IMG/VR virus record: IMGVR_UViG_3300026521_000559
Coordinates: 1 to 36,161 of that record
From: a virus
DNA length: 36,161 bases
Direction: 5' to 3' (one strand)
Below the pieces are notes generated by a model. It had not been told where the DNA came from. It saw only the letters and a program-made list of their open reading frames with translations, and ran no database searches. Position 1 is the first letter of the stretch; each line of letters opens with the position of its first letter. The translations under genes and the position numbers were made by a program. Shown one piece after another: positions 4,447 to 35,494 of the stretch.

Positions 4447-4505
4447 TAGAAACCATTAAAGATAAATCAAACAAAGATAAAATATATTAAAAAAGGAAAT
4501 CTTCT

Positions 4506-17918: not shown

Positions 17919-19676
17919 ATGATAAAAACAATAACGGATACTGTGATAGATTGTAGAAATTTATTGCAAAATACGACTACAAATTTACCAGAAGATTTAA
18001 TAAATGAATTAAATAGAATTTTTAATATTTTTGATAAGAGTTCTTCGCCTTCCGAAGAGTTATCTAACTCTTCGGAATATAATTTAATTACAAAGTTGTA
18101 TAAATTAAATGTATTGTTAACTAGATTAACTACAGAAAAAAAATTAAATAACATTTTTTTAAAATCGGTGGATAGAATGCTTCCGATAATAAACGAATCG
18201 ATTCGTTTATTATCATTAAATTATTTTCAAAATTTATATAACCTATCTACCGAGGCAGTTGAAAATAAATTAAAAAGTTTAGATCATTACGAGAAAATAA
18301 TAAATAATGATAAGGAACTAAATAAACTTTATAGAAACATGAGAAGTAAATATAAAAACAAAGACTTAATCACAAAAAGAGAATACTTTTTCAACGATGA
18401 AACCAAACCAAACGAGGATTCGTTTCATATAGTATTTCAAATAAATAAAAATTGTAATTTTAAATGTACTTATTGTTATGAAGGATTAGATAAAGTTACC
18501 GAAATTTTAGATATTAAAGATATCCCAAATATTGTTTTGGGTTTAAAAATATTTCAAGATCAGTTAAAAAAAACTAGTACTAAATATAAATTTTCGTTTA
18601 GTATTTTGGGAGGCGAACCAACAATTCTTCCAAAAAAATTAACTCATGCCTTAACAAAAGAATTAATGGATAAGTTAGAATTAACTTATATTATTTTAAT
18701 TACGAATAATTATTCAGCCGAGAAAACAAATAATTTTTTTCATCCGGAATTTCCAAAGGAAAAAATTAAAATACAAATATCATACGACGGTGGAAAAATT
18801 CAAAATGATTATAGAAAAGATATGTCTGGAAAAGGTACCTTATTATCAGGTAAACGAGAAATAATAAAATTGTTAGAAATATCCGATCCAAAAGTAAGAA
18901 TAGCTTTGAAAGCCACTTTACCTATGGAAGCAATAAAAGACTTAAAAAGTGTGATTTTAGATTATGTCGAATTTGAAAATCTTTTCAATACTCATAATAA
19001 TACTAGAAATTTTTCGTACTATCCAACTTTTGATACTACTTCTATTTTAATGTATAATTTAAGAATGGAAAGTTTATCTGGAAATGAATCACAAAAACAA
19101 AAGCTTCTTTCGGATATACACGAAAGTTTTTCATTTTTATTGGATTTTGAACTAAGTCGTTTAAGTAGTGGTAAAAAAGCATTTACAAGATGGTTTAGGG
19201 AAATAAGCTACACTGCTAATAAAACTCAATGTAGTGCGGGAAAATCCTTATTTGGATTGGATCAAAATGGTGACGGAAGATATTGCCATAGAACCGAATT
19301 TGGGGAAACTCATACCAATATTAAATTCCCATATGCTAAGAATCAATTAAATTCTTTGCTTTATGGTAATATAAAGGATTTAAATTTTTACAAAAAATTT
19401 GATAAAACTAAAAAAATCTTGGAACATACGGAAACCAAAAATTTTAGTCTATGTGAAAGTTGTATGACTCTAACGTGTGTTAAATGTCCTATGGTAAATA
19501 TTTCTCCTGATAGAGTATTGGATACGACCACTTCGTCCGATCTTTATAAAGATATGTATTCTCATGGGTTAACTCTATCATGCGAAATAAATAATATTAT
19601 TAGTAATTATTTATTTATTTTTACACAAATTGTATATAACAATGGAAAAAAAGAAAAGGAAAATTATGGGAATTGA
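17919..19676 (+). CDS. Radical SAM/SPASM enzyme, probable peptide maturase
   Basis: 585 aa, with GTAAAGGAATAATATATG. The radical SAM cluster motif is C179-x3-C183-x2-C186 (NCNFKCTYC), followed by ILGGEPT, the GGE motif that contacts SAM. The N-terminal 170 residues are an extra helical domain, which in peptide maturases often binds a leader peptide. The C-terminus carries SPASM-type cysteines: CSAGKSLFGLDQNGDGRYC, then CESCMTLTCVKCP, enough for auxiliary 4Fe-4S clusters. SPASM enzymes of this length commonly form thioether or carbon-carbon crosslinks in ribosomal peptides. The next gene overlaps by 11 nt and encodes a Cys-rich tail, so it is the natural substrate candidate. The family is certain; the reaction is inferred. 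Confidence 0.85.
   Translation: MIKTITDTVIDCRNLLQNTTTNLPEDLINELNRIFNIFDKSSSPSEELSNSSEYNLITKLYKLNVLLTRLTTEKKLNNIFLKSVDRMLPIINESIRLLSLNYFQNLYNLSTEAVENKLKSLDHYEKIINNDKELNKLYRNMRSKYKNKDLITKREYFFNDETKPNEDSFHIVFQINKNCNFKCTYCYEGLDKVTEILDIKDIPNIVLGLKIFQDQLKKTSTKYKFSFSILGGEPTILPKKLTHALTKELMDKLELTYIILITNNYSAEKTNNFFHPEFPKEKIKIQISYDGGKIQNDYRKDMSGKGTLLSGKREIIKLLEISDPKVRIALKATLPMEAIKDLKSVILDYVEFENLFNTHNNTRNFSYYPTFDTTSILMYNLRMESLSGNESQKQKLLSDIHESFSFLLDFELSRLSSGKKAFTRWFREISYTANKTQCSAGKSLFGLDQNGDGRYCHRTEFGETHTNIKFPYAKNQLNSLLYGNIKDLNFYKKFDKTKKILEHTETKNFSLCESCMTLTCVKCPMVNISPDRVLDTTTSSDLYKDMYSHGLTLSCEINNIISNYLFIFTQIVYNNGKKEKENYGN
18050..18077 (+). repeat. Stem-loop with 13-bp perfect arms in the rSAM gene start
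   Basis: TTCCGAAGAGTTA (18050-18062) and TAACTCTTCGGAA (18065-18077) are separated by 2 nt. It lies inside codons 44-53 of the SPASM gene. Confidence 0.85.
18185..18214 (+). repeat. Perfect 30-nt palindrome in the rSAM gene
   Basis: 15-bp arms without a spacer (GATAATAAACGAATC / GATTCGTTTATTATC), 107 nt after the previous stem-loop and in the same N-terminal coding part. Confidence 0.88.
19656..19668 (+). promoter_or_regulatory. SD choosing ATG 19666 for the Cys-rich protein
   Basis: AAGGA at 19656-19660 lies 5 nt before ATG 19666. A longer in-frame start at 19630 has no SD and would only add 12 basic residues that overlap the upstream gene, so 19666 is preferred. Confidence 0.65.
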
Positions 19677-20244
19677 AACGGAAATTGATAATCAAGTATG
19701 TCGGTTTAATACCACCTTATTCGAAGGAGGGGATAGTATTTATACTACCGGCGGTACAGAAAATACCGAAGATAATGATCCTCCCGAAATGGTAGAAGAT
19801 GTGGATGAAACGTGTCCAAGTTATAAAGCAATGTGTACTGAAAATTTAGCCGACGATATCGAAGATATATTTTCAGGTATATCTTCAAATGGTCCAGAAA
19901 TAGAAGAAAATCATTTAAAAAGCATATATGATATGTCCAAAACTTTATCCCAAGATAGAAATTTTTTAGAAATAGATGAAAGTTTAGTCGAAATTTCAGT
20001 TGGTGAAATAGTAGATCATGACGATTTCAATACTTTAAAAAATTGGACCGATTCTATAACGGCCGCTGAATTAAAGGTCGAATATAGACCAGCCGGAACA
20101 TTAATAGATATGGACGGATTTGTTGAATTAAAAGAAAAATTTAAAGAAATTGCAACATTATGTAATACAAATTCCCAGTGCGAATGTAATTCAATTTGTA
20201 CTTGTAATACCGTATGTACATGTAATTGCGATTCAAATTACTAA
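19666..20244 (+). CDS. Cys-rich protein with CxCN repeats; candidate rSAM-modified (RiPP-like) precursor
   Basis: 192 aa, starting inside the end of the SPASM gene (11-nt overlap). Residues 1-150 are very acidic and might act as leader or carrier. They contain only three cysteines (C12, C50, C57). The last 27 residues hold eight cysteines (C166, 172, 174, 178, 180, 184, 186, 188) in a repeat CECNSI-CTCNTV-CTCNCD and end DSNY. A long acidic leader plus a short Cys-repeat C-terminus next to a SPASM enzyme is the layout of thioether- or crosslink-forming peptide systems. Alternatives: a metal-binding (metallothionein-like) tail, a disulfide-rich virion tip, or a substrate of another rSAM in the operon. 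No protease or exporter gene is visible nearby. Confidence 0.72.
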   Translation: MGIETEIDNQVCRFNTTLFEGGDSIYTTGGTENTEDNDPPEMVEDVDETCPSYKAMCTENLADDIEDIFSGISSNGPEIEENHLKSIYDMSKTLSQDRNFLEIDESLVEISVGEIVDHDDFNTLKNWTDSITAAELKVEYRPAGTLIDMDGFVELKEKFKEIATLCNTNSQCECNSICTCNTVCTCNCDSNY

Positions 20245-20258
20245 ATTAAGGATTTGTA

Positions 20259-20888
20259 ATGCAGGTAGCTATAATAAATAAAATAAAAGACAACTATATA
20301 ATTACCGATATATTGGAAGTTAATTCCGGAGATTTAAAATTTATAGATCTTTGGGCAAAAATTGAAGATAATGTAAAACAATTTTATAATTTTTTAAAAA
20401 ATAGTTATAAAAATATTTATATCGAAGAATCGGCTGTTTTAAAAAAAGAGATTCTTAAAAATGATTTTTTATATGATAAATATAAAAGACCTTCTAAATC
20501 GTCGGATAATGAAGCAACTGTAAGAACAGAGTTGGAAATTAAAAAAATAAAATTTTTAAAAGAACTCGATAACTTTTTACTAAATAATATTTCAAATATA
20601 GGTTTTTTAAAATATATTCAATATTTAAATTATTTTAATTATTTTGCTTCAAATGGTATATTTATTACCGAAGAAAATAAAGAGGAAAAATATATTGAGA
20701 TATTGGATTTGGATGACGAATCAGCAATTGAAAAATTAGAATTATATTTAACGATTCAGGAAGAATTAGAACCATTTTTAAAATTTAATGAAACTATTTC
20801 AAACTTGAAGGAAGAAATTATATATATGGATGAAGATGAATTTGAGTCAGAACGATTAAAATACAATGAATCTTTAAAATTAACGTAA
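20259..20888 (+). CDS. Hypothetical helical protein, 209 aa
   Basis: 209 aa, with AAGGATTTGTAATG; the stop overlaps the next start (TAATG). The N-terminus (1-25) is a small beta unit (VAIINKIKDNYIITDILEV); the remainder is helical and acidic at the end (EEIIYMDEDEFESERLKY). No cysteines, no known motif. The order SPASM enzyme - Cys-rich peptide - this gene suggests a partner such as a recognition or scaffold protein, or a fibre-assembly factor; neither is shown by sequence. Function unknown. Confidence 0.55.
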   Translation: MQVAIINKIKDNYIITDILEVNSGDLKFIDLWAKIEDNVKQFYNFLKNSYKNIYIEESAVLKKEILKNDFLYDKYKRPSKSSDNEATVRTELEIKKIKFLKELDNFLLNNISNIGFLKYIQYLNYFNYFASNGIFITEENKEEKYIEILDLDDESAIEKLELYLTIQEELEPFLKFNETISNLKEEIIYMDEDEFESERLKYNESLKLT

Positions 20889-21727
20889 TGCAATTATTAC
20901 AAGAAATTAAATTCGGATCTCGTAAAAGAGGTTCGAATACTATTCCTGCGAAAATTTTTAGAACGTTTGAAAACTATGAAATTATTACAGATTTAACGAA
21001 TTTAAATCCATCGGAGAAATTTATTAATTTTTATAGAATACCAAAGAAAGAAATTTTTAATGATAATTTATTATTTACATATTCTCAATCAAAAGAGGAA
21101 TTAATACAGAGAGGATTATTTACAAATGCTTTAAATTTATCTTTTTTAAAATATAATTCCAAAATAGTTTCCAATGGTTTTTATTATTCTAAATATTATA
21201 ATATGTTATATTTTCCAACTTATTTTTATTCGATCCATGATATAAATATGGTATATAATATTAAAAAATCGTATAAATATGGTTTTTATAATAGATTGGA
21301 ATGTCCAAACGATAGGGAAATATTAAAAAAATATTCCCCGGAGGAATTATTAATTTTTGGAAATTTTGGAAATGAAAAAAAATTCGATAGTCTTACCGAC
21401 CAAGGACTTTTTTTTAATAGTTTTGAAACTTTAATTGTTAATAACGAACCAAACGATTCGGTTTCGAATACCTTATTAGAAGGTATTTTTCTAAAGAAAA
21501 AAATAAAAATGGAAAATAATTTTAATATAGCTAATGATAATAAGGCATTGTTAGAAGCTCGTTTTAGATTAGGATATGATAATTTATTCAAAGCTCTTGA
21601 TAATTTAAATATTTATTGTTGGTATGATTTAACAGAAGATAATTTTAACGACCGTTTGGATTATATAAATAAATTGATTAAACAATCAGTGACCTTTGAT
21701 CAATTTTTACAAAAAGGATTTTTATGA
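20888..21727 (+). CDS. Unknown protein, possibly glycosyltransferase-related, 279 aa
   Basis: 279 aa, 1-nt overlap upstream and 4-nt overlap downstream. Residues about 60-205 alternate short strands and helices with many aromatic residues. The stretch with SFETLIVNNEPND, then VSNTLLEGIFLKKK (about 175-205), resembles the acidic 'sndp..ntllEg...kk' nucleotide-sugar motif of GT-B glycosyltransferases, and a comparable segment occurs in the 596-aa protein two genes later (FQFDCSPRFIAECQFYNKKV). The N-terminal domain expected in a full GT-B enzyme is not obvious, so the call is weak. Confidence 0.4.
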   Translation: MQLLQEIKFGSRKRGSNTIPAKIFRTFENYEIITDLTNLNPSEKFINFYRIPKKEIFNDNLLFTYSQSKEELIQRGLFTNALNLSFLKYNSKIVSNGFYYSKYYNMLYFPTYFYSIHDINMVYNIKKSYKYGFYNRLECPNDREILKKYSPEELLIFGNFGNEKKFDSLTDQGLFFNSFETLIVNNEPNDSVSNTLLEGIFLKKKIKMENNFNIANDNKALLEARFRLGYDNLFKALDNLNIYCWYDLTEDNFNDRLDYINKLIKQSVTFDQFLQKGFL

Positions 21728-22416
21728 AAATAGAAACAGTATTTTATTTAACAAAAGAGTGCAATTTTAAATGTACATATTGTTATAAAGGGGATCAGAA
21801 AAATAAAGAATTGCTTTCAGAAAAACGAATTGATATAATATTAAAAGAATTTTTAAAAAATTCGCATAATATCGATACTTTTTATTTACGGGTTCGTGGG
21901 GGCGAAATTAGTATTAACGAAGAAACAATCCCATTAATAAAAAAACTTATGGATTTTTTAGAAAAATTATCCTCGCGAGGAATAAAGGTATTATTTGAAT
22001 TTAGTACAAATTTTAAAAATAAAAATTACTTTAAAAAATTAACAAAACTATTTTATAATTACAATATACCAATTAAAACTGATTTTAGTATACATTTTGA
22101 ATACTATAATCATAAAAATAAATATAAAATAATAAATAAAATATTATATATTATAAAACTTTATCCTAAGGCTCTCTATAGAATCGTCTTTGATAATTTT
22201 GATGAAGCTCAACACGAACTATTAAAACTATCTTTTATTGATATTGGAATACCTTTAAAATTTTCAAATACCTATGGCTTATTTTTAGAAAAATCTCGTG
22301 AAAAATATGATTTAAAAATATTAGTGGATAATAAATTATTACCACTTGTTAACGATAAAAGAATATCTATTAAAAAATTCTTAAAATTAACCAATTCGGA
22401 AATATTATGGAAATAA
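21724..22416 (+). CDS. Compact radical SAM protein without SPASM domain
   Basis: 230 aa, with AAAAGGATTTTTATG and an ATGA overlap. C13-x3-C17-x2-C20 (ECNFKCTYC) is followed by RVRGGEIS near residue 58 and EFSTNFKNK, the strand/loop features of the radical SAM barrel. It is shorter than a typical SPASM enzyme and I see no further cysteines, so there is no auxiliary cluster. The last 60 residues are unlike a SPASM tail. It might work on a small molecule or on the product of its neighbours, or be a partial barrel that needs a partner. Overlap with the next gene is 10 nt. Confidence 0.75.
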   Translation: MKIETVFYLTKECNFKCTYCYKGDQKNKELLSEKRIDIILKEFLKNSHNIDTFYLRVRGGEISINEETIPLIKKLMDFLEKLSSRGIKVLFEFSTNFKNKNYFKKLTKLFYNYNIPIKTDFSIHFEYYNHKNKYKIINKILYIIKLYPKALYRIVFDNFDEAQHELLKLSFIDIGIPLKFSNTYGLFLEKSREKYDLKILVDNKLLPLVNDKRISIKKFLKLTNSEILWK

Positions 22417-24197
22417 TTCTTACCTATTGTCCAAGTGATTTTGAAAAAAATAGAATCTGTGGGCACACTTTCGAAGTAATGGATTATTATTTATTGTTTA
22501 CTCAACTTGGGTATAAGGCAAAAATTCTTATTCAGGATAGTATAGAGAAAAATCGGTTGTATAAGGCATGGGAGGATAAATACGATAATGAATATTTGGA
22601 TAAAAACTATAAGATGGATATTATTTTTAAAAAAAGTAAGATAATAAAAGCAGATATTTTAATTTTCGTAGATGGGTTATATAATTATTATATAGATACT
22701 TATATTTTAAAATATAAGTATCTATATATATTTCGATGTAATACGAAAACAAATTATAAAATTCTACTAAAAAATAAAAATGTTTTCTTATTTCAAGATT
22801 ATAGAGTTTATCAGGATTATCATAATTATACAAATGTTATAAACTATGTAAAAAAAATAAAGTTCGATAATTATAAAAAATATTCAAAAACCAAAACAAA
22901 TAAAACTCTAGTATATATAAATTCGAATTTAAGAAAATTAGAAACTCCTTTACCAAAAAATCGTAATTATATATATTTATCTGGAACTAATTTATCAAAA
23001 GATTATATAAAATCCTTGAGTATAGGATTTAAAGATCTTATATATGCTCCAGTAGAAAACCTTTTTGAAAAATTTGACGAATTTTTATATACTAGTACTA
23101 AATTTCAATTTGATTGTAGTCCTAGATTTATCGCGGAATGTCAATTTTATAATAAAAAAGTATCCTTTAATTTCGATATTGAAAAATATTTTGAAATCGA
23201 TACTGGATTAAAGTGGAGATGGTACGATACTATAAATAATTTTAATAATTTAGTATTAAATAAAGAGGATTTAATTATAAAATATTTAAAACGGATATGT
23301 GTCCCAAGTGCTCCAAGTACCTTTCAAGCGGTTAGTAATGAACATACTTCTTATCATATAGAATTTCCAATAACATATAAATGTAATTTCAATTGTGAAT
23401 ATTGTTATGCTAAGGAAGAAATATCTTCAATAAATAAAGATATTTCTTTAAGTTCGATAATATCATCTATTAACCATTTAAAAACTTTTTCGAAAAATTG
23501 TTCGGCTAACATTAAAAAATATCTTTATTTATTGGGAGGCGAGCCAACAATACATAATAATTTTAAAATAATTTTAAAATTATTATTACCCCTGGACGAT
23601 TCTTTTAAAATTCATTTGGTGACAAATTCTAAAAATATTTTAAAATATAAAAATGAATTATTAAAATTTAAAAATTTAAAAATTACGTTATCTTTTCATC
23701 CAACTCAAATGACCACCACTGATTTCTTAAAAATCCTCGAAAAATCTTTTGTCGTTTTTAATAATAAAATATTAATCGAACCAAGCATTCCCGATATAAT
23801 GGATAGTAAAAAATATAAAATGGATTTACAAAGAATATTTAATTTTTGTAAAAAAATAAATATTCCAATAGATTATAATATTATTAATAGTACGGAATGG
23901 TATTCCGCCGAAAAAGAAACAAAATCTTTTAATATTTTTAATAATTTAGAAAGCAATAATGATAAATTTATATTAAATAATATTGTATATTCTTATTCCG
24001 AAATAGTAAAAAATAAGTTGGATAATTTTTTTGGTTGGTATTGTTATTCGAAAGTTTTTAAAGCTACTGATAAAGGTTTAAAGCATGCATGTACTAACCA
24101 AGATATAAAAGACTTAATCGATAAACCAGTAATATGTCCATTTAATAAATGTGAATGTGAATATTATTTAAAAGGTAAAAAAATAAATGACAGATAA
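22407..24197 (+). CDS. Fusion: N-terminal glycosyltransferase-like domain + C-terminal radical SAM/SPASM
   Basis: 596 aa. Residues 1-290 look like a GT-B-type domain: MEIILTYCPSDFEKN.. near an ICGHTFEVMDYYLLF helix, LIFVDGLYNYY, a middle strand YINSNLRKLE, and FDCSPRFIAECQFYNKKV near 235-260. A linker with PSAPSTFQAVSNEHTS leads to a radical SAM part: C326-x3-C330-x2-C333 (KCNFNCEYCYA), LYLLGGEPT near 374, LVTNSKNI, ITLSFHPTQM, and a C-terminal set FGWYCYSKVF, HACTNQDI, CPFNKCECEY. The whole C-terminal half is paralogous to the 314-aa protein at 30194. Fusing the two domains suggests that sugar transfer and radical chemistry act on one substrate. A 40-nt palindrome lies in the GT part. Confidence 0.72.
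   Translation: MEIILTYCPSDFEKNRICGHTFEVMDYYLLFTQLGYKAKILIQDSIEKNRLYKAWEDKYDNEYLDKNYKMDIIFKKSKIIKADILIFVDGLYNYYIDTYILKYKYLYIFRCNTKTNYKILLKNKNVFLFQDYRVYQDYHNYTNVINYVKKIKFDNYKKYSKTKTNKTLVYINSNLRKLETPLPKNRNYIYLSGTNLSKDYIKSLSIGFKDLIYAPVENLFEKFDEFLYTSTKFQFDCSPRFIAECQFYNKKVSFNFDIEKYFEIDTGLKWRWYDTINNFNNLVLNKEDLIIKYLKRICVPSAPSTFQAVSNEHTSYHIEFPITYKCNFNCEYCYAKEEISSINKDISLSSIISSINHLKTFSKNCSANIKKYLYLLGGEPTIHNNFKIILKLLLPLDDSFKIHLVTNSKNILKYKNELLKFKNLKITLSFHPTQMTTTDFLKILEKSFVVFNNKILIEPSIPDIMDSKKYKMDLQRIFNFCKKINIPIDYNIINSTEWYSAEKETKSFNIFNNLESNNDKFILNNIVYSYSEIVKNKLDNFFGWYCYSKVFKATDKGLKHACTNQDIKDLIDKPVICPFNKCECEYYLKGKKINDR
22689..22728 (+). repeat. Perfect 40-nt palindrome inside the GT-rSAM fusion gene
   Basis: 20-bp arms without a spacer, centred at 22708/22709 (TTTT|AAAA). 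Read in the coding frame it gives a tyrosine-rich segment around YIDTYILKYKYLY, and the opposite strand spells the same peptide. Confidence 0.92.
23416..23448 (+). repeat. Stem-loop with 12-bp perfect arms beside the CxxxCxxC motif
   Basis: AAGAAATATCTT (23416-23427) and AAGATATTTCTT (23437-23448) flank a 9-nt loop, just after the Fe-S cysteine codons of the fusion gene. With the other internal palindromes it points to a class of intragenic inverted repeats. Confidence 0.7.
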
Positions 24198-25137
24198 AGA
24201 ATGGTATCGCAATCTAATTAAAGAAAAATTTAAACCTCGTATAGTAGTATTGGATTTAAACGATCCGTGCTATTTAAATTGTAATTTTTGTCCAAAAAAT
24301 AGTATTCATCATAAGTTCATGACTAATTCAAATAATTTAGAAAAAATATTTTATATTATTGATTATTTTATTGAACTTGGTGTTCAATCGTTCGAAATTA
24401 CTCCAACCATAGGTGATTCCATAAATAATAAAAATATAATAGAAATTTTAGACTATATTAAAAGTAAGAATAAAAAAGCATTTATGTTTACATCCTTATT
24501 GGGAAAAGACTCCTCGGATATTATTAAAAAAATTCCTCGGATAATCGATAGGCCAGATTTTTATTTGGTTATAAGTATATATGGATTAACGAAAAAAACT
24601 TTTTTTCAAAAGACAAATTCCAACGATTTTTTAAATTTTAAAAAAAATTTATTTTTCTTATTGGATAATTTTAAAGAATTATCTAGTTCTCTGGATAATT
24701 CTTTTTTAATTCTTCGTAATCGTTTTAATAATTCTGTTTCTTTAGATTATAAATTATTCGAAAGTTTAGAAAAAAAATATTCTAATTCCAGAATATTATT
24801 CGAAAGCTATCATCCAGATATATACAAAACGAATAATAAATACAATAATATATGTTGTAATTTTTTAATTAATTTTGGATGTAATTTAAAAGGCGAGGTA
24901 CGATTTTGCAATTACGCTTATGGAGCGCCAATAATAGGAAATATTTTTGATGGTACATTTAATCAAAATGATTTAAATAAATATTTTGAAAAATATTTAA
25001 ATAACGAATTCTGTAAAAATTGCATACTTTACGAAGAAGTAGAAAATAAACATGATATTATAAACGAAAGTTATAAATTTAAATCTTTTAAAAACGAAGG
25101 TATAGATTTTAATATAGGATTAACAAAGGAAATTTAA
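24187..25137 (+). CDS. Radical SAM protein of the 'TPTxGD' type
   Basis: 316 aa, 11-nt overlap with the fusion gene, 1-nt overlap downstream. C28-x3-C32-x2-C35 (PCYLNCNFCPK). Where other rSAM proteins here have GGE, it has FEITPTIGD, a variant seen in some radical SAM families of surface-glycan clusters. C-terminal cysteines CC (NICCNFLINFGC), VRFCNYAYG and FCKNCILYEE could bind an auxiliary cluster (SPASM-like). The whole protein is paralogous to the C-terminal part of the next gene (561 aa), which shares the TPTxGD and CKNC elements. Reaction unknown. Confidence 0.78.
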   Translation: MTDKEWYRNLIKEKFKPRIVVLDLNDPCYLNCNFCPKNSIHHKFMTNSNNLEKIFYIIDYFIELGVQSFEITPTIGDSINNKNIIEILDYIKSKNKKAFMFTSLLGKDSSDIIKKIPRIIDRPDFYLVISIYGLTKKTFFQKTNSNDFLNFKKNLFFLLDNFKELSSSLDNSFLILRNRFNNSVSLDYKLFESLEKKYSNSRILFESYHPDIYKTNNKYNNICCNFLINFGCNLKGEVRFCNYAYGAPIIGNIFDGTFNQNDLNKYFEKYLNNEFCKNCILYEEVENKHDIINESYKFKSFKNEGIDFNIGLTKEI

Positions 25138-27844: not shown

Positions 27845-28800
27845 AAAAATATAATAAAACATTACTCAATATATTATCAAATAAAATATTTGATTATCTA
27901 ATAACCAATCTTCCAAAAGCATATCCGGAATTAAATGAACCAGACGTAACAATAAAAATTGATTATATAAAGGATAAAATAGTTCCAAAATTTATAGAAT
28001 ATGGGAATGATATGGATAATCCAGAAATGAAATTATCTAAAGTTTTCCTATGGGATAAATTAGAAATAATTAATAACGGAAAATTGGAAAATTGGTATTT
28101 TAAAGACTCTTTCTTAAATAATATTATTTTTAATACCGAGTACCATGAATACAGAGAATACAGAGAATACATAAATGATTTTAATTTTGCAGAAACGGAA
28201 TCGTTTGTTATTTTAAAAAAATATCCAAAAATAGCCATTAAAAACATTTTAGCATGTTATCCAAAAAATAAAACTTTTGAACATCCAAATTATTTTTTTG
28301 AGTTGGATAATATTTTTTATAAAGTGAGTAAACCAGTCTTTAGTAATATTAGTTGTTTTAAAGATGTCGTATTATTTGGAAATTCTCGGTATAATGATTC
28401 AGGATATAGATTAATTTTATTGGTAACCAACTTAACGGAAGTAGAAAATATAAAAAAATTTTTCAATAAAAATAATTTCATGTTTAAATACGTTACTGTA
28501 ATCTTAGAAAAGGATTTTTTAAATTTACCACTTTCTGAAAAAATGGATATTTTTCAGAAAAAAGATATAACTATCGAAAATATTAAAAAATATGATTTTA
28601 GAATAAATCAACTTAATTTTCATCCGAAATTAGATTATTTTTACGATAATAAAAAGGAGGTTTTTAAGATTATGATAGAAGATATAAAAAAGATATTACT
28701 AAATAATAAACTTAATAAACATAATAAACAAGTAAGTGAATATACACCTGATATAAATACCAAAAATATGGATTACCAAAATGAAATCTATTCAAAATAA
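27841..28800 (+). CDS. Hypothetical protein, 319 aa
   Basis: 319 aa, with AAAGGAAAAAAAATG. I do not recognise it. The N-terminal half is helical; about 170-245 looks like an alpha/beta unit (DVVLFGNSRYNDSGYRLILL, then FKYVTVILEKDF). A short tandem repeat near residue 104 encodes EYREYREY (three 9-nt units at 28147-28173). The C-terminus is Lys/Asn-rich and overlaps the aminotransferase gene by 20 nt. It may bind a nucleotide or a small substrate, but there is no motif to support a function. Confidence 0.5.
   Translation: MKKYNKTLLNILSNKIFDYLITNLPKAYPELNEPDVTIKIDYIKDKIVPKFIEYGNDMDNPEMKLSKVFLWDKLEIINNGKLENWYFKDSFLNNIIFNTEYHEYREYREYINDFNFAETESFVILKKYPKIAIKNILACYPKNKTFEHPNYFFELDNIFYKVSKPVFSNISCFKDVVLFGNSRYNDSGYRLILLVTNLTEVENIKKFFNKNNFMFKYVTVILEKDFLNLPLSEKMDIFQKKDITIENIKKYDFRINQLNFHPKLDYFYDNKKEVFKIMIEDIKKILLNNKLNKHNKQVSEYTPDINTKNMDYQNEIYSK
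28147..28173 (+). repeat. Tandem 9-nt repeat (GAATACAGA), 3 units
   Basis: Units at 28147, 28156 and 28165 (the last ends ATA). Being a multiple of three it inserts Glu-Tyr-Arg steps without a frameshift. Confidence 0.75.
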
Positions 28801-29413
28801 TAATCATTTTTTAAATACGTTTGAAAAACGTATTTCCGAAGTTACTGGAGCACCGTACGTGGTTCTTACGGATAGCTGTAGTAACGCTATTTTTATAACT
28901 ATATGGTATCTAAAAAAAATAAAAAAAATAAAATTTCCAAATAAAATTATTATTCCAAATAGAACGTATATAAGTGTTCCGAATGCTATTTTTCGCAACG
29001 GCTTAAAACCAGTATTTAAAAAAATAAAATGGTTTTCTAGATATCGGATTGGAACTTTGCCTATTTGGGATTGTGCAGTAGGATTTGAAAAAAATATGTA
29101 TATAAAGAAACAATATATGTGTTTAAGTTTTCAACAAAAAAAAGCTATTGGTATTGGAAAAGGTGGAGCAATTTTATTAGATAATAAAAAAGATTATTTA
29201 TTTTTAAAAAGACTTGTTCATGACGGAAGAGATTCTGGAATACCAGTATCCAAGGATACCAATATTATATATGGATTCCATATGAATATGACTCCTGATC
29301 AAGCGGCTAAAGGAATTTTATTATTAAATCAGTATGTATTTGCCGATCGAGATCTTGGTTCATATAAAAATTATCCAAAATTAAGGAAAATTTGTGAAAA
29401 AAATTACAAATAA
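28781..29413 (+). CDS. DegT/DnrJ/EryC1-type PLP aminotransferase, shortened
   Basis: 210 aa, overlapping the previous gene by 20 nt and without a clear SD. DegT-family features: PYVVLTDSCSNAIF for the SGT loop, KIIIPNRTYISVPNAIFRNG for the P..T.....ai...G strand, PIWDCAVGF for the EDaA(h)-type Asp that binds PLP, SFQQKKAIGIGKGGAILL with K121 as the Schiff-base lysine, and RLVHDGRD. These enzymes aminate keto sugars. Family members are about 370 aa; here the C-terminal 150 residues (small domain) are missing. The following 266-aa frame is not that domain. It may be a natural minimal form or a remnant that is still in frame. A 10-bp stem-loop lies at 28813-28835. Confidence 0.75.
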   Translation: MKSIQNNNHFLNTFEKRISEVTGAPYVVLTDSCSNAIFITIWYLKKIKKIKFPNKIIIPNRTYISVPNAIFRNGLKPVFKKIKWFSRYRIGTLPIWDCAVGFEKNMYIKKQYMCLSFQQKKAIGIGKGGAILLDNKKDYLFLKRLVHDGRDSGIPVSKDTNIIYGFHMNMTPDQAAKGILLLNQYVFADRDLGSYKNYPKLRKICEKNYK

Positions 29414-30194
29414 ATCTTTTGATTCTTTACTTAATTTTATAAAACCATATAAAAAACAATTGGATAATATAAAAAATTTGGATATTATTTTAGGACAATC
29501 TGAGAATTGGTATTTATACCATAATCCAAAAAATAAACCGTATTGTTTTTACAGTAGTATAAATAATAAATTATTAAAGGTTATTTTTTTAAAAGAATTG
29601 GAAAAAAATAACTTTTCTAATTCTTTTGATATTTTAAAATTAAAAAAATATTTAAAAACTTTAGAACAACAAGATAAAATAAAATTTATATCGGATGATA
29701 TATTTTTTTTAGAATGTCCGAAATACCCAAAATTAAATATAACCATAAAGGAATACATTGTTTTAATTAATTCGATTAAAAAAAAATTAAAAAAATTTGA
29801 TATTTATTTTGATATAGATTTAAATATTATCGAAATCGATCCAAAGCAATTAAATATTTCTATCCATGAGAACGATCTTTTAATTTTGGATTATAAAATG
29901 TTGCAATTTTATTCGCCGGAAAAATTAATGGATGGAAAATTATTTGAATATAATATAAAAGATGAATTTATTATATATTTTTATTATTTTAAAAATGAAT
30001 TTAAACTCGAATTATTTGATGTTGGTACTACCGAAACTATCCCATTTCAGGAAATATCCGAATTATTAAATAAAAGATTAATTAAAATTTTAAATACCTT
30101 TAAATATAAAAATATTTTAAAATGTTTTAAATTATTGGCAAATGTATTAAGCACATTTAATTATAATAACCATAATATTAAAGGAGTTGATTAA
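29394..30194 (+). CDS. Hypothetical protein, 266 aa (GTG start)
   Basis: 266 aa. GTG at 29394 with AAGGAAAA about 6 nt upstream sets the start, overlapping the aminotransferase gene by 20 nt. It is Lys/Ile/Phe-rich with a helical N-terminus (1-90), a mixed middle (125-185) and a beta-containing C-terminal part (FIIYFYYFKNEFKLELFDV). There are no cysteine pairs or catalytic motifs. I do not recognise it. It is translated together with the rSAM gene that follows (1-nt overlap). A role as a substrate-binding or acceptor-handling protein is only a guess. Confidence 0.5.
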   Translation: MKKITNKSFDSLLNFIKPYKKQLDNIKNLDIILGQSENWYLYHNPKNKPYCFYSSINNKLLKVIFLKELEKNNFSNSFDILKLKKYLKTLEQQDKIKFISDDIFFLECPKYPKLNITIKEYIVLINSIKKKLKKFDIYFDIDLNIIEIDPKQLNISIHENDLLILDYKMLQFYSPEKLMDGKLFEYNIKDEFIIYFYYFKNEFKLELFDVGTTETIPFQEISELLNKRLIKILNTFKYKNILKCFKLLANVLSTFNYNNHNIKGVD

Positions 30195-31138
30195 TGAAAG
30201 CTTTCCAAGGAATCAATCATAAGAAAAACAGATTATATATTCATTGGGATATAACTACCAAATGTAATTATAAATGTAATTATTGTTACGCGGAAAATGA
30301 ATATTCTAAAAAAGAAGAATGGAATTTGGAATCGAATGAAAAAAATATTAAAAGTATTATAACTTCATTAAGATTAAGCGCTCTTCCTATTTTTTTAGGA
30401 TTGCTTGGAGGAGAACCAACTCAATCAAAATATTATTTTAAAATTTTAGAAGAAATTGAAAATAATATTTTACCAAAACATAAAGATAATAGATTATATA
30501 TTACTACAAATCTTAGTAAAGATTTGGATTATTGGAAAGAACATCCAAAAATAAAAAATACTTTTATATTGTGTAGTTTTCATCCGGAATATTTTAAAAT
30601 AAATACAATTAATAAAATTAAGAAATATGTCGAAAAATTAGAATATTTGAATAAATATTTTAGAGTAAAAGTCAATATAATGTTAGATCCAAAATATGAT
30701 AATATTACTCAGGAATGGTTAAAAATTTTACCAAATATTTCCAAAGACATATTAATACACCCACATATTATTTATCCAGATGGAAGTCCACATAACGACT
30801 TACAGATCATGTATGAAACATCTTTTGATAAATATCAAGAAATATATAAATACATGTGTAAAGAATATGAATATATTATAAATGATAAAAAAGAACATTT
30901 AAATGATATAGAAGTTTTTTCTAAGAACTTAAATAAGTTTAAAGGTTGGAAATGTTATCAAAATAATTATGAAATATCTTTTAATGGTTTGGTTAGTTCT
31001 TCCTGTTTTCCAGGAACAGTTTCTTTAGGAACTAACCCAATGTATTTTAAAAAAATTAAAGAGGTACTATCTAAAACATGTCCTCATAATTTTTGTAACT
31101 GCGACGGATTACTAAAATGTCAAAAAATATTAAACTAA
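30194..31138 (+). CDS. Radical SAM protein, 314 aa, paralogue of the fusion's C-terminal half
   Basis: 314 aa, with AAAGGAGTTGATTAATG. C24-x3-C28-x2-C31 (KCNYKCNYCYA), FLGLLGGEPTQ, LYITTNLSKD, FILCSFHPEYF and the end FKGWKCYQNNYE, SSSCFPGT, CPHNFCNCDG. The matching elements of the 596-aa fusion (CNFNCEYCYA, LYLLGGEPT, LSFHPTQM, FGWYCY, CPFNKCEC) occur in the same order, so the two are paralogous modules, here without the glycosyltransferase. Overlaps the GT gene by 22 nt. Confidence 0.8.
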   Translation: MKAFQGINHKKNRLYIHWDITTKCNYKCNYCYAENEYSKKEEWNLESNEKNIKSIITSLRLSALPIFLGLLGGEPTQSKYYFKILEEIENNILPKHKDNRLYITTNLSKDLDYWKEHPKIKNTFILCSFHPEYFKINTINKIKKYVEKLEYLNKYFRVKVNIMLDPKYDNITQEWLKILPNISKDILIHPHIIYPDGSPHNDLQIMYETSFDKYQEIYKYMCKEYEYIINDKKEHLNDIEVFSKNLNKFKGWKCYQNNYEISFNGLVSSSCFPGTVSLGTNPMYFKKIKEVLSKTCPHNFCNCDGLLKCQKILN

Positions 31139-31737
31139 GTATATTAATACCAACTCATGATAGACCAGAACAATTACAGAATTGTTTGTTGAGTATCTGT
31201 AAAGCAGATATACAAATACCTTACGAAATTATTATTAATTGTGATGATAATTCTATTAAAGATATAAACTTTAATAAATATAAATTACCAATTAAGATTT
31301 ATAATAATAAATTTTTTAATTGGGGACAAGTATATAATTTTTTATATAAAAAATCAAATGGAAACTATATTTATTTCTTAGAGGATGATGATTTATTATT
31401 AACATCATTTGATTTTCTCGATTATGATTTTGACTATTATTTTGGAATGTATTATCCAAACAAAAGAGAAAATAATACTCTTAAAAAATTTAGAAATTCT
31501 TTTAAAAGAATATGGAGTTTTACACATACTAAATTATTTTTTAATTATAATATTCCAGAAAAATTTATTCATTTCCAGTTGGGCCAGATAATTATTAAAA
31601 AAGAAATTATTAAAAAATTTCCAAAAACCGATAATAAATATAATGATTATTATTTATTTGCTAAAAATCCAGGAACTATTAAATACATAAATAAACTATT
31701 CTATAAACAAGGAGAATCCCATTACAATGTTTCATAA
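31117..31737 (+). CDS. GT2-family (GT-A) glycosyltransferase
   Basis: 206 aa. KLSILIPTHDRPEQLQNCLL is the opening strand and nucleotide site of the GT2 fold, EIIINCDDNS is the second acidic motif, and YIYFLEDDDLLL carries the metal-binding acidic cluster. It is short for the family (about 250-300), so it may lack an acceptor helix, but the catalytic half is intact. It starts 22 nt inside the end of the rSAM gene. It probably transfers a sugar in the same product pathway. Confidence 0.8.
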   Translation: MSKNIKLSILIPTHDRPEQLQNCLLSICKADIQIPYEIIINCDDNSIKDINFNKYKLPIKIYNNKFFNWGQVYNFLYKKSNGNYIYFLEDDDLLLTSFDFLDYDFDYYFGMYYPNKRENNTLKKFRNSFKRIWSFTHTKLFFNYNIPEKFIHFQLGQIIIKKEIIKKFPKTDNKYNDYYLFAKNPGTIKYINKLFYKQGESHYNVS

Positions 31738-32485
31738 AACAATACAAGAAATATATCAAAAATTAACTATAAAAAAATTACTTCAATATAGTATAGATAA
31801 CAATCTAAAACATATACCAAGTGCTCTCAGTCAATTCAAATATCTTAAATACTTATTACCAAAACTCGATTATGATAATACGAATATAGTAATAGGCAAG
31901 CCCTTTGGTTCTCAGGCTTATTATATGATCTGGAAAGAACTTGGATTAATAGCTAATCAAAAATTATCATATGGTGTTAAACATGACGAAATAGAATTCG
32001 TTAATTACGGTGAAGAAACGCTTGGAAACGCCTTGGGTATAGGATCTGGAATATCGTTAGGAAGTCCCGATAAACTAACCTATGTTAACCTAAGTGATGG
32101 TGCTTTACAGATGGGTCCAACCTTAGAAGCTATACAATTCATAGGAAAGCATCAATTAAATATGATAATTACCGTTGATTTTAATGGTATGCAATTAACG
32201 GATAGTATTCAAAATATTTCTGGAATCAATAGTTTAAATATCGAATCGATATTTAAACTATATAATATAGAAACTTATCTTATAGATACCACAGTTTTAA
32301 ATATTCATGAAATAAATTTAATTATAAATAGCGTTTTACTAAATCAAAAAGAAACTAAGAAACCAACGACCTTGATATTTAAAACTATTAAGGGTCATGG
32401 AGTTAAAGAAATGGAAGAAGATCCAATATTTTGGCACTATAAAGAATTAAAAAATATTGGTGATATAACTATCGTAAATAACTAA
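31727..32485 (+). CDS. Transketolase N-terminal (ThDP-binding) subunit
   Basis: 252 aa, with AAGGAGAATCCCATTACAATG. GEETLGNALGIGSGISLG, then VNLSDGALQMGPTLEAIQF and IITVDFNGMQL form the ThDP/metal motif (DG...14..N form). IFKTIKGHGVKEMEEDP and FWHYKEL match the transketolase KG.GV..ME....WH segment. It carries only the PP domain; the partner with the Pyr domain is the 152-aa gene at 33641. Split transketolases of this kind in sugar clusters move a two-carbon unit onto a sugar. Last gene of the overlapping operon. Confidence 0.85.
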   Translation: MFHKTIQEIYQKLTIKKLLQYSIDNNLKHIPSALSQFKYLKYLLPKLDYDNTNIVIGKPFGSQAYYMIWKELGLIANQKLSYGVKHDEIEFVNYGEETLGNALGIGSGISLGSPDKLTYVNLSDGALQMGPTLEAIQFIGKHQLNMIITVDFNGMQLTDSIQNISGINSLNIESIFKLYNIETYLIDTTVLNIHEINLIINSVLLNQKETKKPTTLIFKTIKGHGVKEMEEDPIFWHYKELKNIGDITIVNN

Positions 32486-32531
32486 CATACGACACTTAGT
32501 TAACTATCAGTACACACACTATGAATAGTTA
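32475..32531 (+). repeat. 57-bp direct repeat, copy 1
   Basis: Identical to 32671-32727. It starts inside the last codons of the transketolase gene (TAAATAACTAACATACGACA) and contains TTAACTAT...ATAGTTA arms of an imperfect palindrome. Confidence 0.93.
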
Positions 32532-32604
32532 TTCGTTTTATAAAATTCCTAGCTAACAGATTTTAAAATAAACTTAAATTCTGTTCTTGGATCCCCTATT
32601 TACC

Positions 32605-32732
32605 GGTGCTATCAGTGTTTGAAAAATTAACTATTTCTTAAATTTTGGTTTTTAAAAATTTTAAAAAAACTAAATAACTAACATACGACACTTAGTTAAC
32701 TATCAGTACACACACTATGAATAGTTAACTAT
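32605..32732 (+). repeat. 128-bp leader repeat, plus-strand copy
   Basis: The same unit recurs in inverted orientation at 36034-36161. The first 99 positions differ at a single base; then a 13-nt loop differs (CAGTACACACACT here), then ATGAATAGTTAACTAT matches again. It ends 28 nt before the SDR start codon. It contains the 57-bp repeat copy 2 and an AACTAA/TTAGTT inverted pair. Its location in front of two different transcription units, in the same orientation to each, fits a promoter/operator leader. No clear -10/-35 pair stands out. Confidence 0.85.
32671..32727 (+). repeat. 57-bp direct repeat, copy 2
   Basis: Second exact copy of 32475-32531, 196 bp downstream, lying within the 128-bp leader unit. 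Confidence 0.93.
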
Positions 32733-32760
32733 TAATAAAATTATATAAATAAGGATTATA

Positions 32761-33342
32761 ATGATATTGGTAACAGGAGAAAAAGGTTATTTGGGAAAAG
32801 CCTTCCTAAATTATAAAATTAATGATTTTATAACTTTAGAAGATTATTTTCTAAATCCTTGTCCAGAAAAATTAACTAAAATTATCCATATTGCTGGAGT
32901 ATCAGATAAAAAAGATTTTAAAAATATTAAAAAAACTACCGAATCGATGATAGTATTAACCCAACAATTGGTAAATTTAGCAAAACAAAATAATATAGAA
33001 TTTATATTTTTTAGCTCGGAAGCCGCTATAAGTGATTTAGATATTTATGGTACTTATAAAAGATCTATGGAATTTTATATAAAAGCTTTTTTAAAAAAAT
33101 ATAAAATATTAAGAATACCTAGAATTTATTCTAGCTGTAGAGAAAAAGGTTTAATCAAATTATTAAAAAATAAAGAAATTCCAAAAAAAGATTATAACAA
33201 TACGGTTGAATTTTTAGATTTAGATGAATTCGTCCCACAAGTTTATCATTATATATTCGAAGAGAAGTCTTCTCGGATATATTATTTTAAAAGGTTAGAG
33301 ACAAAAACAATTAAAGAAATAGAGGAAAGATATGTTAATTAG
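32761..33342 (+). CDS. Short-chain dehydrogenase/epimerase-like protein (NAD(P)-binding)
   Basis: 193 aa, with ATAAGGATTATAATG. VTGEKGYLGKAF is the TGxxGxxG dinucleotide motif; the active-site pair is Y96-x3-K100 in the context FFSSEAAISDLDIYGTYKRS, with the preceding Ser cluster. Extended SDRs that epimerise or reduce nucleotide sugars have about 300 aa; here the substrate-binding domain is only 60-70 aa, so it is a short member. LRIPRIYSS and EFLDLDEFV match typical C-terminal elements. It overlaps the next gene by 11 nt and sits between the two transketolase halves, which suggests work on the transketolase product. Confidence 0.8.
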   Translation: MILVTGEKGYLGKAFLNYKINDFITLEDYFLNPCPEKLTKIIHIAGVSDKKDFKNIKKTTESMIVLTQQLVNLAKQNNIEFIFFSSEAAISDLDIYGTYKRSMEFYIKAFLKKYKILRIPRIYSSCREKGLIKLLKNKEIPKKDYNNTVEFLDLDEFVPQVYHYIFEEKSSRIYYFKRLETKTIKEIEERYVN

Positions 33343-33637
33343 TATAGATAAAAAAATAATTTTAGAAGTCATGGAAGAGGCGACCACAGAACGAAAACTT
33401 ATGAGAATTCCGATTATGGCCGGAGTAGGAGCTGCGCTTCATTCAACCGTTGGTACTGGCGTAGAAGCAGCCCTTGGAAAAGACGATGTGTTAACTTTAG
33501 ATAGTATTGGTGATAAAGCTCTGTTAGGCGCTGGAATTGGGTCTTTATTTGGTGGTATTAATTATTTTAAAAAGGATGGTGGTCTTGGTCCAACGGCTTT
33601 ACTTGGCCAGGTTTTATATCCAATTAAAAAAAGGTAA
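33332..33637 (+). CDS. Glycine-rich small protein, 101 aa
   Basis: 101 aa, with GAGGAAAGAT before the ATG, 11-nt overlap upstream. Residues 25-80 are Gly/Ala/Leu-rich with glycine-zipper spacing (IMAGVGAALHSTVGTGVEAA; then GDKALLGAGIGSLFGG). The layout resembles the N-terminus of the 1102-aa virion protein (SSLGDYATMGGSALGALAAP), so it could be a small membrane-active or virion relative misplaced in a sugar-enzyme operon. A holin-like or packing role is possible. Function unknown. Confidence 0.5.
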   Translation: MLISIDKKIILEVMEEATTERKLMRIPIMAGVGAALHSTVGTGVEAALGKDDVLTLDSIGDKALLGAGIGSLFGGINYFKKDGGLGPTALLGQVLYPIKKR

Positions 33638-33640
33638 ATT

Positions 33641-34099
33641 ATGCGCAAATTAATAGCAAATTATTTAAAAGAGACCGATTATTTATTACATGCCGATATG
33701 TTTAATATTAAAAACTTTCCAACAAAAGCCAATATAATTAATATTGGTCTTGGCGAAAGTAATTTATTAAATATTGCTGGTGGTTTATCTAGTCTTGGTA
33801 ATACCGTATATATTTATGGAGTCGCTGGTTTTATAATACATAGATATGAACAATTAAAATTTAGCTGTAGAGATTTTGGATCTAAGAATGGTAAAATAAT
33901 TATATGTAATGCTGGTAAATTTGGATATGAGAATTTAGGAGATGGACATAAATTAGATGATGATTTAGAAATTATGGAATTATTAAATATTGAATATTTT
34001 CAACCAGAAACTTTAGAACATACGCAAAATATTTTAGAGGATTTAAATAAAAAAGAAAATGGAATATATTATATTCAACTGGGAAAAGATCTTTCGTAG
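33641..34099 (+). CDS. Transketolase C-terminal subunit (pyrimidine-binding domain)
   Basis: 152 aa, 3 nt after the glycine-rich gene. INIGLGESNLLNIAGGL carries the catalytic Glu (GxGESN); AGFIIHRYEQLKFSCRDF is the F...R..EQl strand; GYENLGDGHKLDDDLE is the GdGxTHq..eD region with its His. The terminal transketolase domain (about 120 aa more in the family) is absent, so only the minimal Pyr domain is present. Combined with the 252-aa PP subunit at 31727 it gives a two-part ThDP enzyme. The terminator hairpin follows. Confidence 0.8.
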   Translation: MRKLIANYLKETDYLLHADMFNIKNFPTKANIINIGLGESNLLNIAGGLSSLGNTVYIYGVAGFIIHRYEQLKFSCRDFGSKNGKIIICNAGKFGYENLGDGHKLDDDLEIMELLNIEYFQPETLEHTQNILEDLNKKENGIYYIQLGKDLS

Positions 34100-34100
34100 T

Positions 34101-34152
34101 TTTAACGACAGGAATATTATCATTAAGTATATTTATACTTAATGATAATATT
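34101..34152. terminator. Bidirectional hairpin terminator with trailing CCTGTCGTTAAA element (- strand)
   Basis: 19-bp perfect arms (34113-34131 and 34134-34152) with a 2-nt loop lie between convergent genes. Read on the minus strand the stem is followed by TTCCTGTCGTTAAA (34111-34102 region), the same trailing element as after 3104 and 12038. On the plus strand it is followed by TTTAAAA. It ends the plus-strand transketolase group and the minus-strand operon together. Confidence 0.85.
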
Positions 34153-34153
34153 T

Positions 34154-34432: not shown

Positions 34433-34438
34433 AAAATT

Positions 34439-34444
34439 CCTCCT
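34439..34444 (-). promoter_or_regulatory. Strong AGGAGG ribosome binding site
   Basis: CCTCCT on the plus strand, that is AGGAGG on the minus strand, 6 nt before ATG 34432. The plus-strand genes use AAAGGAA-type sites instead. Confidence 0.8.
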
Positions 34445-34471
34445 ATATTAAGAATATTTATTTGTTAATAA

Positions 34472-35494
34472 TTATTTTTTAAATCCATCACATTGGATAT
34501 TCCAAGGACATTTCATACATTTCAATGTTTTATAATATTGAGTTTTTCTTTTATATAATAAATCATTTTTTATTCTTGTTAAATTAAATCCGAAATAATT
34601 CTCTTTTAAAATATCCTCTTTATAAATATAAAAAGGATTCCAATCGTTGGTAAAATAATGATCTAAATAATTATAAATATATTTATGATATTTTTCTGGA
34701 AGATAACAATATTCCAAATACCGAATATTTAATTTTATATTTTTAAGAATTATTTTATCTAATACTTCTTCTAAAAGATTAATATTATCGTGTATAATAG
34801 CTTGAGATTTTTTACCAATTGTTTCGGCATCCACCCATTCATTAATCGGTAAAAAATTAATTTCCTCTATATTAATTACATGGATTGATTTTTGATCCAA
34901 AAGATTTGTTATTATTTTATCTAATTCGAAAATACTTTTATGATTTATTATAATGTTTAGTCTTGATTTTATTTTCCGTTTATAATTTTTAATAATTCTT
35001 AAATTATTAAAAATTGTTTCATAAGCATTTTCTAATTTAACTATATTGTCATGCGTTTCTTTAAAACCATGTATACTAAATAATATTTCGTCTATTCCAT
35101 GATCCAATAATCGTTTGAATTGTTTTGGATTTAAATACCCATTTGTAACTACAGATGTAATTAAACCCAACGATTTGGCGTAACCAACACAATCCAAAAA
35201 ATTTGGATGGATTGTACTTTCCCCTCCACTAAATTCAATACTTTTAAAACCAAATTCATAGGCTTTATCAATTTGATTAATTATAACTTCTTTTGGTAAA
35301 AAATCTTCATTCACTTTAGAAATATAATAACAATATCTGCATTTAGCGTTACATCTAAAACCAGTATCTATTTTTAAACGGGAACTATATTTAGTTTCGT
35401 AATCCCCATATAATTCCGTTAATTTTTCAGAATTTATTTTTAAAATATTTCCTTCTTCTATTTTATTTATAATATTTTTTTCAGAATTTTTCAT
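34472..35494 (-). CDS. Radical SAM/SPASM-like protein, 340 aa (minus strand)
   Basis: 340 aa. C48-x3-C52-x2-C55 (RCNAKCRYCYY), EFSGGESTIHP for the GGE motif, LITSVVTNGY and EILFSIHGFKETHD for later strands of the barrel. The C-terminal CMKCPWNIQCDGF is a SPASM-type ending (one auxiliary cluster, C-x2-C-x5-C). It is the eighth radical SAM gene of the window and the only one on this strand. It sits between dUTPase and a small membrane gene, away from the glycosyltransferases, so it may have an independent role. Confidence 0.85.
   Translation of the reverse strand: MKNSEKNIINKIEEGNILKINSEKLTELYGDYETKYSSRLKIDTGFRCNAKCRYCYYISKVNEDFLPKEVIINQIDKAYEFGFKSIEFSGGESTIHPNFLDCVGYAKSLGLITSVVTNGYLNPKQFKRLLDHGIDEILFSIHGFKETHDNIVKLENAYETIFNNLRIIKNYKRKIKSRLNIIINHKSIFELDKIITNLLDQKSIHVINIEEINFLPINEWVDAETIGKKSQAIIHDNINLLEEVLDKIILKNIKLNIRYLEYCYLPEKYHKYIYNYLDHYFTNDWNPFYIYKEDILKENYFGFNLTRIKNDLLYKRKTQYYKTLKCMKCPWNIQCDGFKK

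Follow-up and report, generated by a model that had tools for sequence, protein, structure and literature searches.

A phage cluster of radical SAM and sugar-enzyme genes and its pairing with Cys-array proteins

Core genes of the cluster

The stretch analysed here (the window) was the entire IMG/VR record IMGVR_UViG_3300026521_000559, a linear fragment of 36,161 bp carrying a cluster of radical S-adenosylmethionine (radical SAM, rSAM) genes together with genes for a fibre-like and a Cys-rich protein. The portal protein showed distant homology to portal proteins of AR9/PBS1-type jumbo phages (24% identity, E 2e-17), and the window appears to be a fragment of an AR9-like jumbo phage. An earlier note on this DNA had listed eight rSAM proteins, and the motif CX3CX2C was located exactly where it had placed them (18453, 21760, 23382, 24268, 25980, 26906, 30263 and, on the minus strand, 35353). 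A search with PF04055 returned the same eight genes, each an open frame with CX3CX2C inside the PF04055 domain, as in members of the radical SAM superfamily; three scored above the Pfam cut-off, and the other five were weaker and significant in the single-record search. Seven of them lay in a run of genes that were tightly packed or overlapped, the eighth on the minus strand. The run directly followed a fibre-like gene, as had been proposed. An origin from decayed host DNA was ruled out by the open, overlapping frames and the conserved catalytic residues. The core features were as follows.

15859..17871, plus strand: fibre-like protein upstream of the cluster, phrog_6427 C-terminus, relatives 40-50% identical
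17919..19676, plus strand: core rSAM/SPASM enzyme (PF04055), putative maturase of the Cys-array protein
19666..20244, plus strand: Cys-array protein, putative substrate, with a helical N-terminal part like that of the CTCNCNY family and three homologues
20161..20241, plus strand: Cys array CNTNSQCECNSICTCNTVCTCNCDSNY, conserved, at the extreme C-terminus of the Cys-array protein
20259..20888, plus strand: P209 family protein (phrog_25260), usually the next gene after the Cys array

The core SPASM enzyme

The core enzyme carried seven C-terminal cysteines (438, 456, 512, 515, 520, 523 and 555) in the pattern CX9-15GX4C ... CX2C...C...C ... C of SPASM-domain maturases. These residues and the CX3CX2C motif were at least 95% conserved among 28 orthologues, with the spacing CX2CX4CX2C in place of CX2CX5CX3C. 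It was the sole rSAM of the window with the strict seven-Cys signature, which was found in at most one rSAM per cluster in the clusters compared. The nearest named profiles were those of Cys-directed peptide maturases (PapB, TIGR04463, CefB), with PapB as the best NCBIfam match (E 1.2e-11). Assignment to the PapB ranthipeptide maturases (NF047865) was rejected at 44.5 bits versus a curated cut-off of 340 bits, and other named maturase families scored far under their cut-offs. The substrates of SPASM rSAMs are mostly ribosomal peptides or proteins. A perfect 12-bp hairpin was noted at 18050-18077, inside the core gene, in the 5' portion of its coding sequence.

The Cys-array protein and its family

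The Cys-rich protein ended in ...LCNTNSQCECNSICTCNTVCTCNCDSNY, and its C-terminus was conserved in all four phages compared (the window and its close IMG/VR relatives L009-L011). A short local comparison with the cultured Campylobacter phage CP220, followed by a motif scan, led to a family of phage proteins with a C-terminal array of Cys-x-Cys (CxC) motifs, termed the CTCNCNY family. Its arrays consisted mostly of tandem CTC[N/D]CNY units (consensus C-T-C-[N/D]-C-N-Y with a period of 7 or 8, derived from 297 units in 41 proteins), reached a maximum of 28 repeats in L142 and often ended in an S74 fibre chaperone. Profile-profile comparison matched the window protein to this family with a probability of 97.4% and E 1.3e-11. 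The CTCNCNY profile found homologues of the window's clade in G001 (E 5e-9) and G002 (E 1.4e-6), and a model of the N-terminal part only found the L010 homologue (E 5.6e-4; best shuffle 0.21). With both the N-terminal homology and a C-terminal CxC array, the window protein is a divergent member of the family.

Tandem 7- or 8-residue units were absent from the window protein, whose array was hexad-like (CxCNxx) and had CTCNC at one end. The same array type occurred in L307, L308, L310, L312 and L324 (example CICNSDCACNSVCTCNTDCRCNYSD), there directly after a SPASM rSAM. L017, a phage of 202 kb that belongs to another lineage and was retrieved via the core rSAM, had four CTCNCNY units and, after them, a Peptidase_S74 domain; the window protein ends at the array and lacks this domain. 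By inspection, the arrays in L341 (8204-9007) and L349 (6706-8127) were followed by a Hint-like (autoprocessing) domain instead of S74. An AlphaFold2 (AF2) model of one array protein showed a helical, ordered N-terminus, an unfolded array (predicted local distance difference test score, pLDDT, <50) and an ordered S74 domain; a fold search with this model gave no useful match, and a tblastn search of phages with the window protein gave no match. The CTCNCNY profile search missed the window's own array copy, so that absence of an array elsewhere is weak evidence and hard to prove. L029/L030, retrieved by the array alone, were set aside, with no array protein inside and one rSAM.

P209 had 32 members, spread over 31 of the 41 loci; the distance to the array gene was usually no more than a few hundred bases, and 25 of 27 members matched phrog_25260; it is possibly a chaperone or partner of the array protein. 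Searches of PDB sequences with the P209 and glycosyltransferase (GT-B) profiles gave nothing usable. The C-terminal domain of the fibre-like protein (the 'TFC' family) was found upstream of rSAM/array genes in many other phage loci.

Association of arrays with radical SAM genes

All IMG/VR contigs were scanned with a DNA pattern for CTCNCNY that was blind to rSAM genes, yielding 81 stretches. Among the first 80, 46 were real in-frame arrays (44 distinct records searched) and 34 were chance matches; the remaining one, L126, also contained an array. The records are metagenomic fragments, and the p values given below are uncorrected. rSAM genes were present in 43 of the 44 array records versus none of the 34 chance-match records (Fisher 2e-21), and a comparison restricted to records of 10-80 kb gave 28/29 versus 0/17 (p 1e-11). 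The array records held 330 rSAM genes in 4.1 Mb (3-16 per rSAM-positive record). At this rate, 42 would have been expected in the chance-match records (0.52 Mb; 518 kb in total), which contained none; the rSAM cluster of the window is far above chance.

The pairing was specific for one type of enzyme. A SPASM core, called by the strict signature or a core score >300 bits, with positive array clusters tallied by hand, was present in 30 of 33 array clusters versus none of 13 array-less multi-rSAM loci (best 52 bits; p 5.5e-9). It lay on the strand of the array in all 27 clusters measured and was immediately adjacent in a good part of them. Conversely, a search with the SPASM profile alone, using no array information, gave 78 loci, and 37 of the 42 that scored at least 200 bits had a CxC array within ~10 kb; the control for array density (at least 3 CxC in 45 amino acids) was reached by 1 of 1,410 open reading frames. 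Among prokaryote genome contigs, 80 of 111 motif hits were examined and contained two real arrays, each near a core-type rSAM and in loci looking like phage DNA. The pairing of array and SPASM enzyme is thus near-obligate.

Weaker SPASM relatives adjoined other array types (CDCxxRTAV, CTCTCT and ACACDCVCDCACVC), one of them on a collagen-like fibre. CDCxxRTAVCDC repeats and a CTCTCTCTCT ladder were seen beside related rSAMs in L315 (3670-5874) and L348 (5965-7828).

Gene order in related phages

The order fibre - core rSAM - Cys-rich protein - P209 - 279-residue protein was the same in L009-L011 as in the window and was followed by differing numbers of rSAM and glycosyltransferase genes (8, 12 and 13 rSAM genes in the whole records), so that a fixed head is joined to a variable tail. 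Maps of 20 kb around about 30 loci gave the common order fibre - [UDP-glucose dehydrogenase] - SPASM rSAM - rSAM - rSAM - array - P209 - GT-B - r34 rSAM - family 2 glycosyltransferase (GT2) - r30 rSAM - ... - transketolase halves, an operon order common to unrelated phage lineages. The conserved synteny that the earlier note had proposed to look for was thus seen in three close relatives and many distant phages, with no disruption. A lineage control based on VrlC yielded just four loci and was set aside as too small. Among 50,697 deposited phage records, matches to r34 (E <=1e-10) and GT-B were restricted to Campylobacter phages of the CP220 group.

Some of the mapped loci also carried genes for a tryptophan-halogenase-like enzyme, a 2-oxoglutarate (2OG)-Fe(II) oxygenase and other enzymes; in the aquatic phage L144, the first two lay inside the array operon (841-2118 and 4370-5008). 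A pyridoxal-phosphate (PLP) enzyme of aminotransferase class I/II (396 amino acids, 18513-19703) lay beside this operon.

Downstream enzymes of the window

The genes downstream of P209 were as follows.

20888..21727, plus strand: 279-amino-acid protein, window's clade only, 47-54% identical in L009-L011
21724..22416, plus strand: short rSAM (PF04055 E 3.7e-7)
22407..24197, plus strand: GT-B glycosyltransferase domain (22407-23291) fused to an rSAM (E 1.1e-10)
24187..25137, plus strand: rSAM, weak PF04055 match, L009 homologue 52% identical
25137..26822, plus strand: putative GT-A-like domain fused to an rSAM (PF04055 E 1.7e-5), 65% identical in L009
26816..27844, plus strand: rSAM (PF04055)
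27841..28800, plus strand: 319-amino-acid protein, no family match
28781..29413, plus strand: short DegT-type PLP enzyme of 210 amino acids (PF01041 E 1.5e-14)
29394..30194, plus strand: 266-amino-acid protein, no family match
30194..31138, plus strand: rSAM of the 'r30' type (PF04055 E 9.5e-12), adjoining GT2 in distant phages too
31117..31737, plus strand: family 2 glycosyltransferase (PF00535, 32.4 bits versus a cut-off of 23.3), L017 homologue 37% identical
31727..32485, plus strand: transketolase N-half, thiamine-diphosphate domain (PF00456), 12 family members
32761..33342, plus strand: short protein like a short-chain dehydrogenase/reductase (SDR) or epimerase (PF01370), weak CP220 homologue
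33332..33637, plus strand: 101-amino-acid protein, no family match
33641..34099, plus strand: transketolase pyrimidine-binding half, 41% identical to CP220 CPT_0179
34472..35494, minus strand: rSAM of the 'r34' type (PF04055 E 1.6e-22), 29% identical to the L017 member, which is itself 49% identical to a CP220 rSAM

At least three glycosyltransferase domains had been claimed for the cluster. Two stood: the GT2 enzyme, by its Pfam match, and the domain at 22407-23291, by its predicted fold. The latter (the N-terminal 295 residues of its protein) had no Pfam match; its AF2 model (pLDDT 92) matched PimA with a Z of 17.0 and a root-mean-square deviation of 3.3 over 259 residues and is predicted to form a GT-B fold with the pair of Rossmann-like domains known from GT4 enzymes. 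Its GT-B and rSAM parts are separate genes in relatives, and the family occurred in 32 loci. The third domain, at the N-terminus of 25137-26822, contained a DxD-like 'YLDCDMYL' and no match to a hidden Markov model, and is unproven.

The DegT-type aminotransferase was confirmed as real though short; its homologues in L034 and L040 were equally short (204 and 217 amino acids), which argues against decay. The proposed SDR and split transketolase likewise found Pfam or homologue support. The split pair supplied the thiamine-diphosphate and pyrimidine domains of a transketolase (a member of the pyrimidine-half family matched Transket_pyr, below the curated cut-off), with no C-terminal third domain seen.

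Proposed pathway and alternatives

A dedicated biosynthetic pathway, as first proposed, was strongly supported and is conserved in phages. The tie between the cluster and a fibre-like protein with a Cys array makes a crosslinked (glyco)peptide and decoration of the fibre the best-fitting of the products considered in the earlier note. We consider it probable that the cluster encodes a pathway by which the phage modifies the Cys-array protein of its own tail fibre. In the scheme that we infer, with the array as substrate, the Cys-array protein (19666-20244) would be recognised by the SPASM rSAM (17919-19676) through its helical, folded N-terminal region. The enzyme would then use radical chemistry to form links in the unfolded tail with its many CxC motifs, most likely thioether bonds that join the sulphur of Cys to an adjacent Asn, Asp, Thr or Tyr. 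P209 may assist this modification, and the remaining rSAMs, the glycosyltransferases, transketolase, DegT and SDR enzymes may build and attach unusual sugars or alter the array further. In relatives, the S74 chaperone after the array would trimerise the fibre. A fibre made in this way would have a stiff, decorated tip with which the virion binds its receptor.

Several observations weigh against this proposal. One array record (G012, 43.8 kb) had no rSAM, and L296-L298 had the SPASM enzyme with no array in view. Thirteen phage loci (L012-L016, L018-L025) carried 2-15 rSAM genes with neither a CxC array in view nor a SPASM core; they show that phage loci with several rSAMs are more widespread than array clusters, and most of the rSAMs may therefore serve another pathway, with glycans possibly being assembled independently of the array. 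The array records are not phylogenetically independent, forming 36 array-protein groups at 80% identity. In CP220, the corresponding genes are dispersed, unlike in the window, and its array protein CPT_0180 was not among the 11 identified virion bands (PMC2853527), so that it may be a minor, unseen or non-virion protein.

Instead, the array might form a fibre tip that binds metal or Fe-S or is linked by disulphides, much like the metal-bearing tips of other phage spikes, with the rSAMs leaving it untouched and being mere neighbours in fibre loci that collect variable cargo. CxC arrays do resemble metallothionein motifs, and AF2, which models no ligands, left the array unfolded. Unlinked cargo would not yield a pairing of the array with one SPASM-type rSAM specifically (30/33 versus 0/13; 37/42 in the reverse search), and we regard this explanation as unlikely. 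Slightly less likely still is that the cluster remodels a host surface glycan (O-chain or capsule), excluding other phages or releasing progeny, with the rSAMs and transketolase making unusual sugars and the Cys-array protein being an unrelated fibre. This is the published reading for pelagimyophages (PMC7029224), and agrees with the glycosyltransferases, split transketolase, SDR and DegT genes and with the UDP-glucose dehydrogenase, halogenase-like and oxygenase genes of relatives. It leaves the co-occurrence of array and SPASM enzyme and the fixed gene order unexplained; the sugar genes sit inside the array operon, and this order argues against glycan remodelling as the whole story. The enzymes could, however, serve both fibre and host glycan.

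It is very improbable that the rSAMs are non-essential auxiliary metabolic genes aiding infected cells at low oxygen, as was proposed for Campylobacter phages such as CP220 (PMC2853527). The SPASM signature and the fibre-protein operon also occur in aquatic phages far from Campylobacter, and the coupling to the array is tight; the SPASM family, moreover, is mostly directed at peptides and proteins. Least probable of all is a secreted toxin or signal released from the Cys tail of a precursor to act on other cells, which the leader-like N-terminus with its C-terminal Cys core and the Hint-like domains of L341 and L349 would suit, and against which stand the S74 and collagen-like fibre contexts, the position in a fibre operon, the lack of any exporter seen and the up to 28 repeats of L142, unlike a small peptide.

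Beyond the window, we tentatively suggest, with somewhat more doubt than confidence, that modification of the Cys-array protein reflects a general, previously unrecognised phage strategy, in which CxC arrays of virion fibres are SPASM rSAM substrates and become radical-crosslinked, glycan-decorated receptor-binding tips. Simple versions would use one rSAM; elaborate ones (8-16 rSAMs with glycosyltransferase, transketolase, halogenase-like and oxygenase genes) would build a variable chemical tip. If so, chemically rebuilt fibre tips would join the known modes of phage host recognition, the long-unexplained rSAM genes of Campylobacter and aquatic phages would acquire a role, and a large reservoir of peptide-modifying enzymes would be opened. 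The array/maturase pairing is a simple marker by which further systems can be located in any phage genome, and the system is directly testable in cultured phages.

Relation to known systems

Glycosyltransferase, SDR, DegT and split transketolase genes are also typical of bacterial surface-polysaccharide glycosylation islands, whereas those of the window sit in a phage fibre operon with rSAM and array genes. S74-chaperone fibres of phages resemble L017 and others, in which S74 follows right after the array; they differ from the present proteins, whose CxC arrays are paired with an rSAM and, in the window copy, lack S74. As in ranthipeptide and other Cys-rich peptide systems (PapB, TIGR04463, CefB), a SPASM rSAM has as its neighbour a ribosomally made protein whose C-terminal stretch is rich in Cys; here, however, the candidate substrate is a phage fibre-like protein with as many as 28 CxC units, accompanied by many extra rSAMs and sugar enzymes. 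PapB forms Cys-Asp/Glu thioethers (PMC9413430). Substrates of the PapB family are marked by Cx3D/E motifs; the arrays found here are CTC[N/D]CNY or CxCNxx.

The earlier note knew of no described phage system with such a gene set; two had in fact been reported. The 2010 description of the Campylobacter phages CP220 and CPt10 gives them an exchangeable module with 11-12 rSAM genes, called highly unusual, and notes a 21-bp repeat of CPT_0180 apart from the rSAMs, with no link drawn between the two in the available text (PMC2853527). Here, CPT_0180 was found to contain six CTC[N/D]CNY-like units near the core-rSAM homologue CPT_0184. Like the window, the CP220/CPt10 modules (Firehammervirus; PMC2853527, PMC3322345) comprise the SPASM rSAM (CPT_0184), the array protein (CPT_0180), P209, GT-B, r34 and transketolase-half homologues; the CP220 SDR homologue is a weak match. 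In the pelagimyophage host recognition clusters (2020), fibre genes stand together with glycosyltransferase genes and rSAM cassettes downstream of VrlC, an arrangement shared with L017; they were read as modifying the host O-chain and, unlike here, were not linked to a Cys-array protein within the accessible text (PMC7029224). A full-text search of the open-access literature returned no paper with the array motif or with rSAM-modified phage fibres; no earlier description of the array-maturase pairing came to light, whereas rSAM/sugar clusters in phages had already been reported.

Other features of the window

A scan for promoters and terminators in the window gave no useful structure. The direct repeat CTAACATACGACACTTAGTTAACTATCAGTACACACACTATGAATAG was present in two copies (32482-32531 and 32674-32730) within the non-coding stretch that separates the SDR gene from the transketolase N-half; none of the fetched loci was reported to have an exact copy. 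Amid the structural genes, 3133-4446 encoded a 437-amino-acid protein with repeated KVEIICPEHGSFWQ units and a nuclease-like C-terminus, which is possibly a homing endonuclease.

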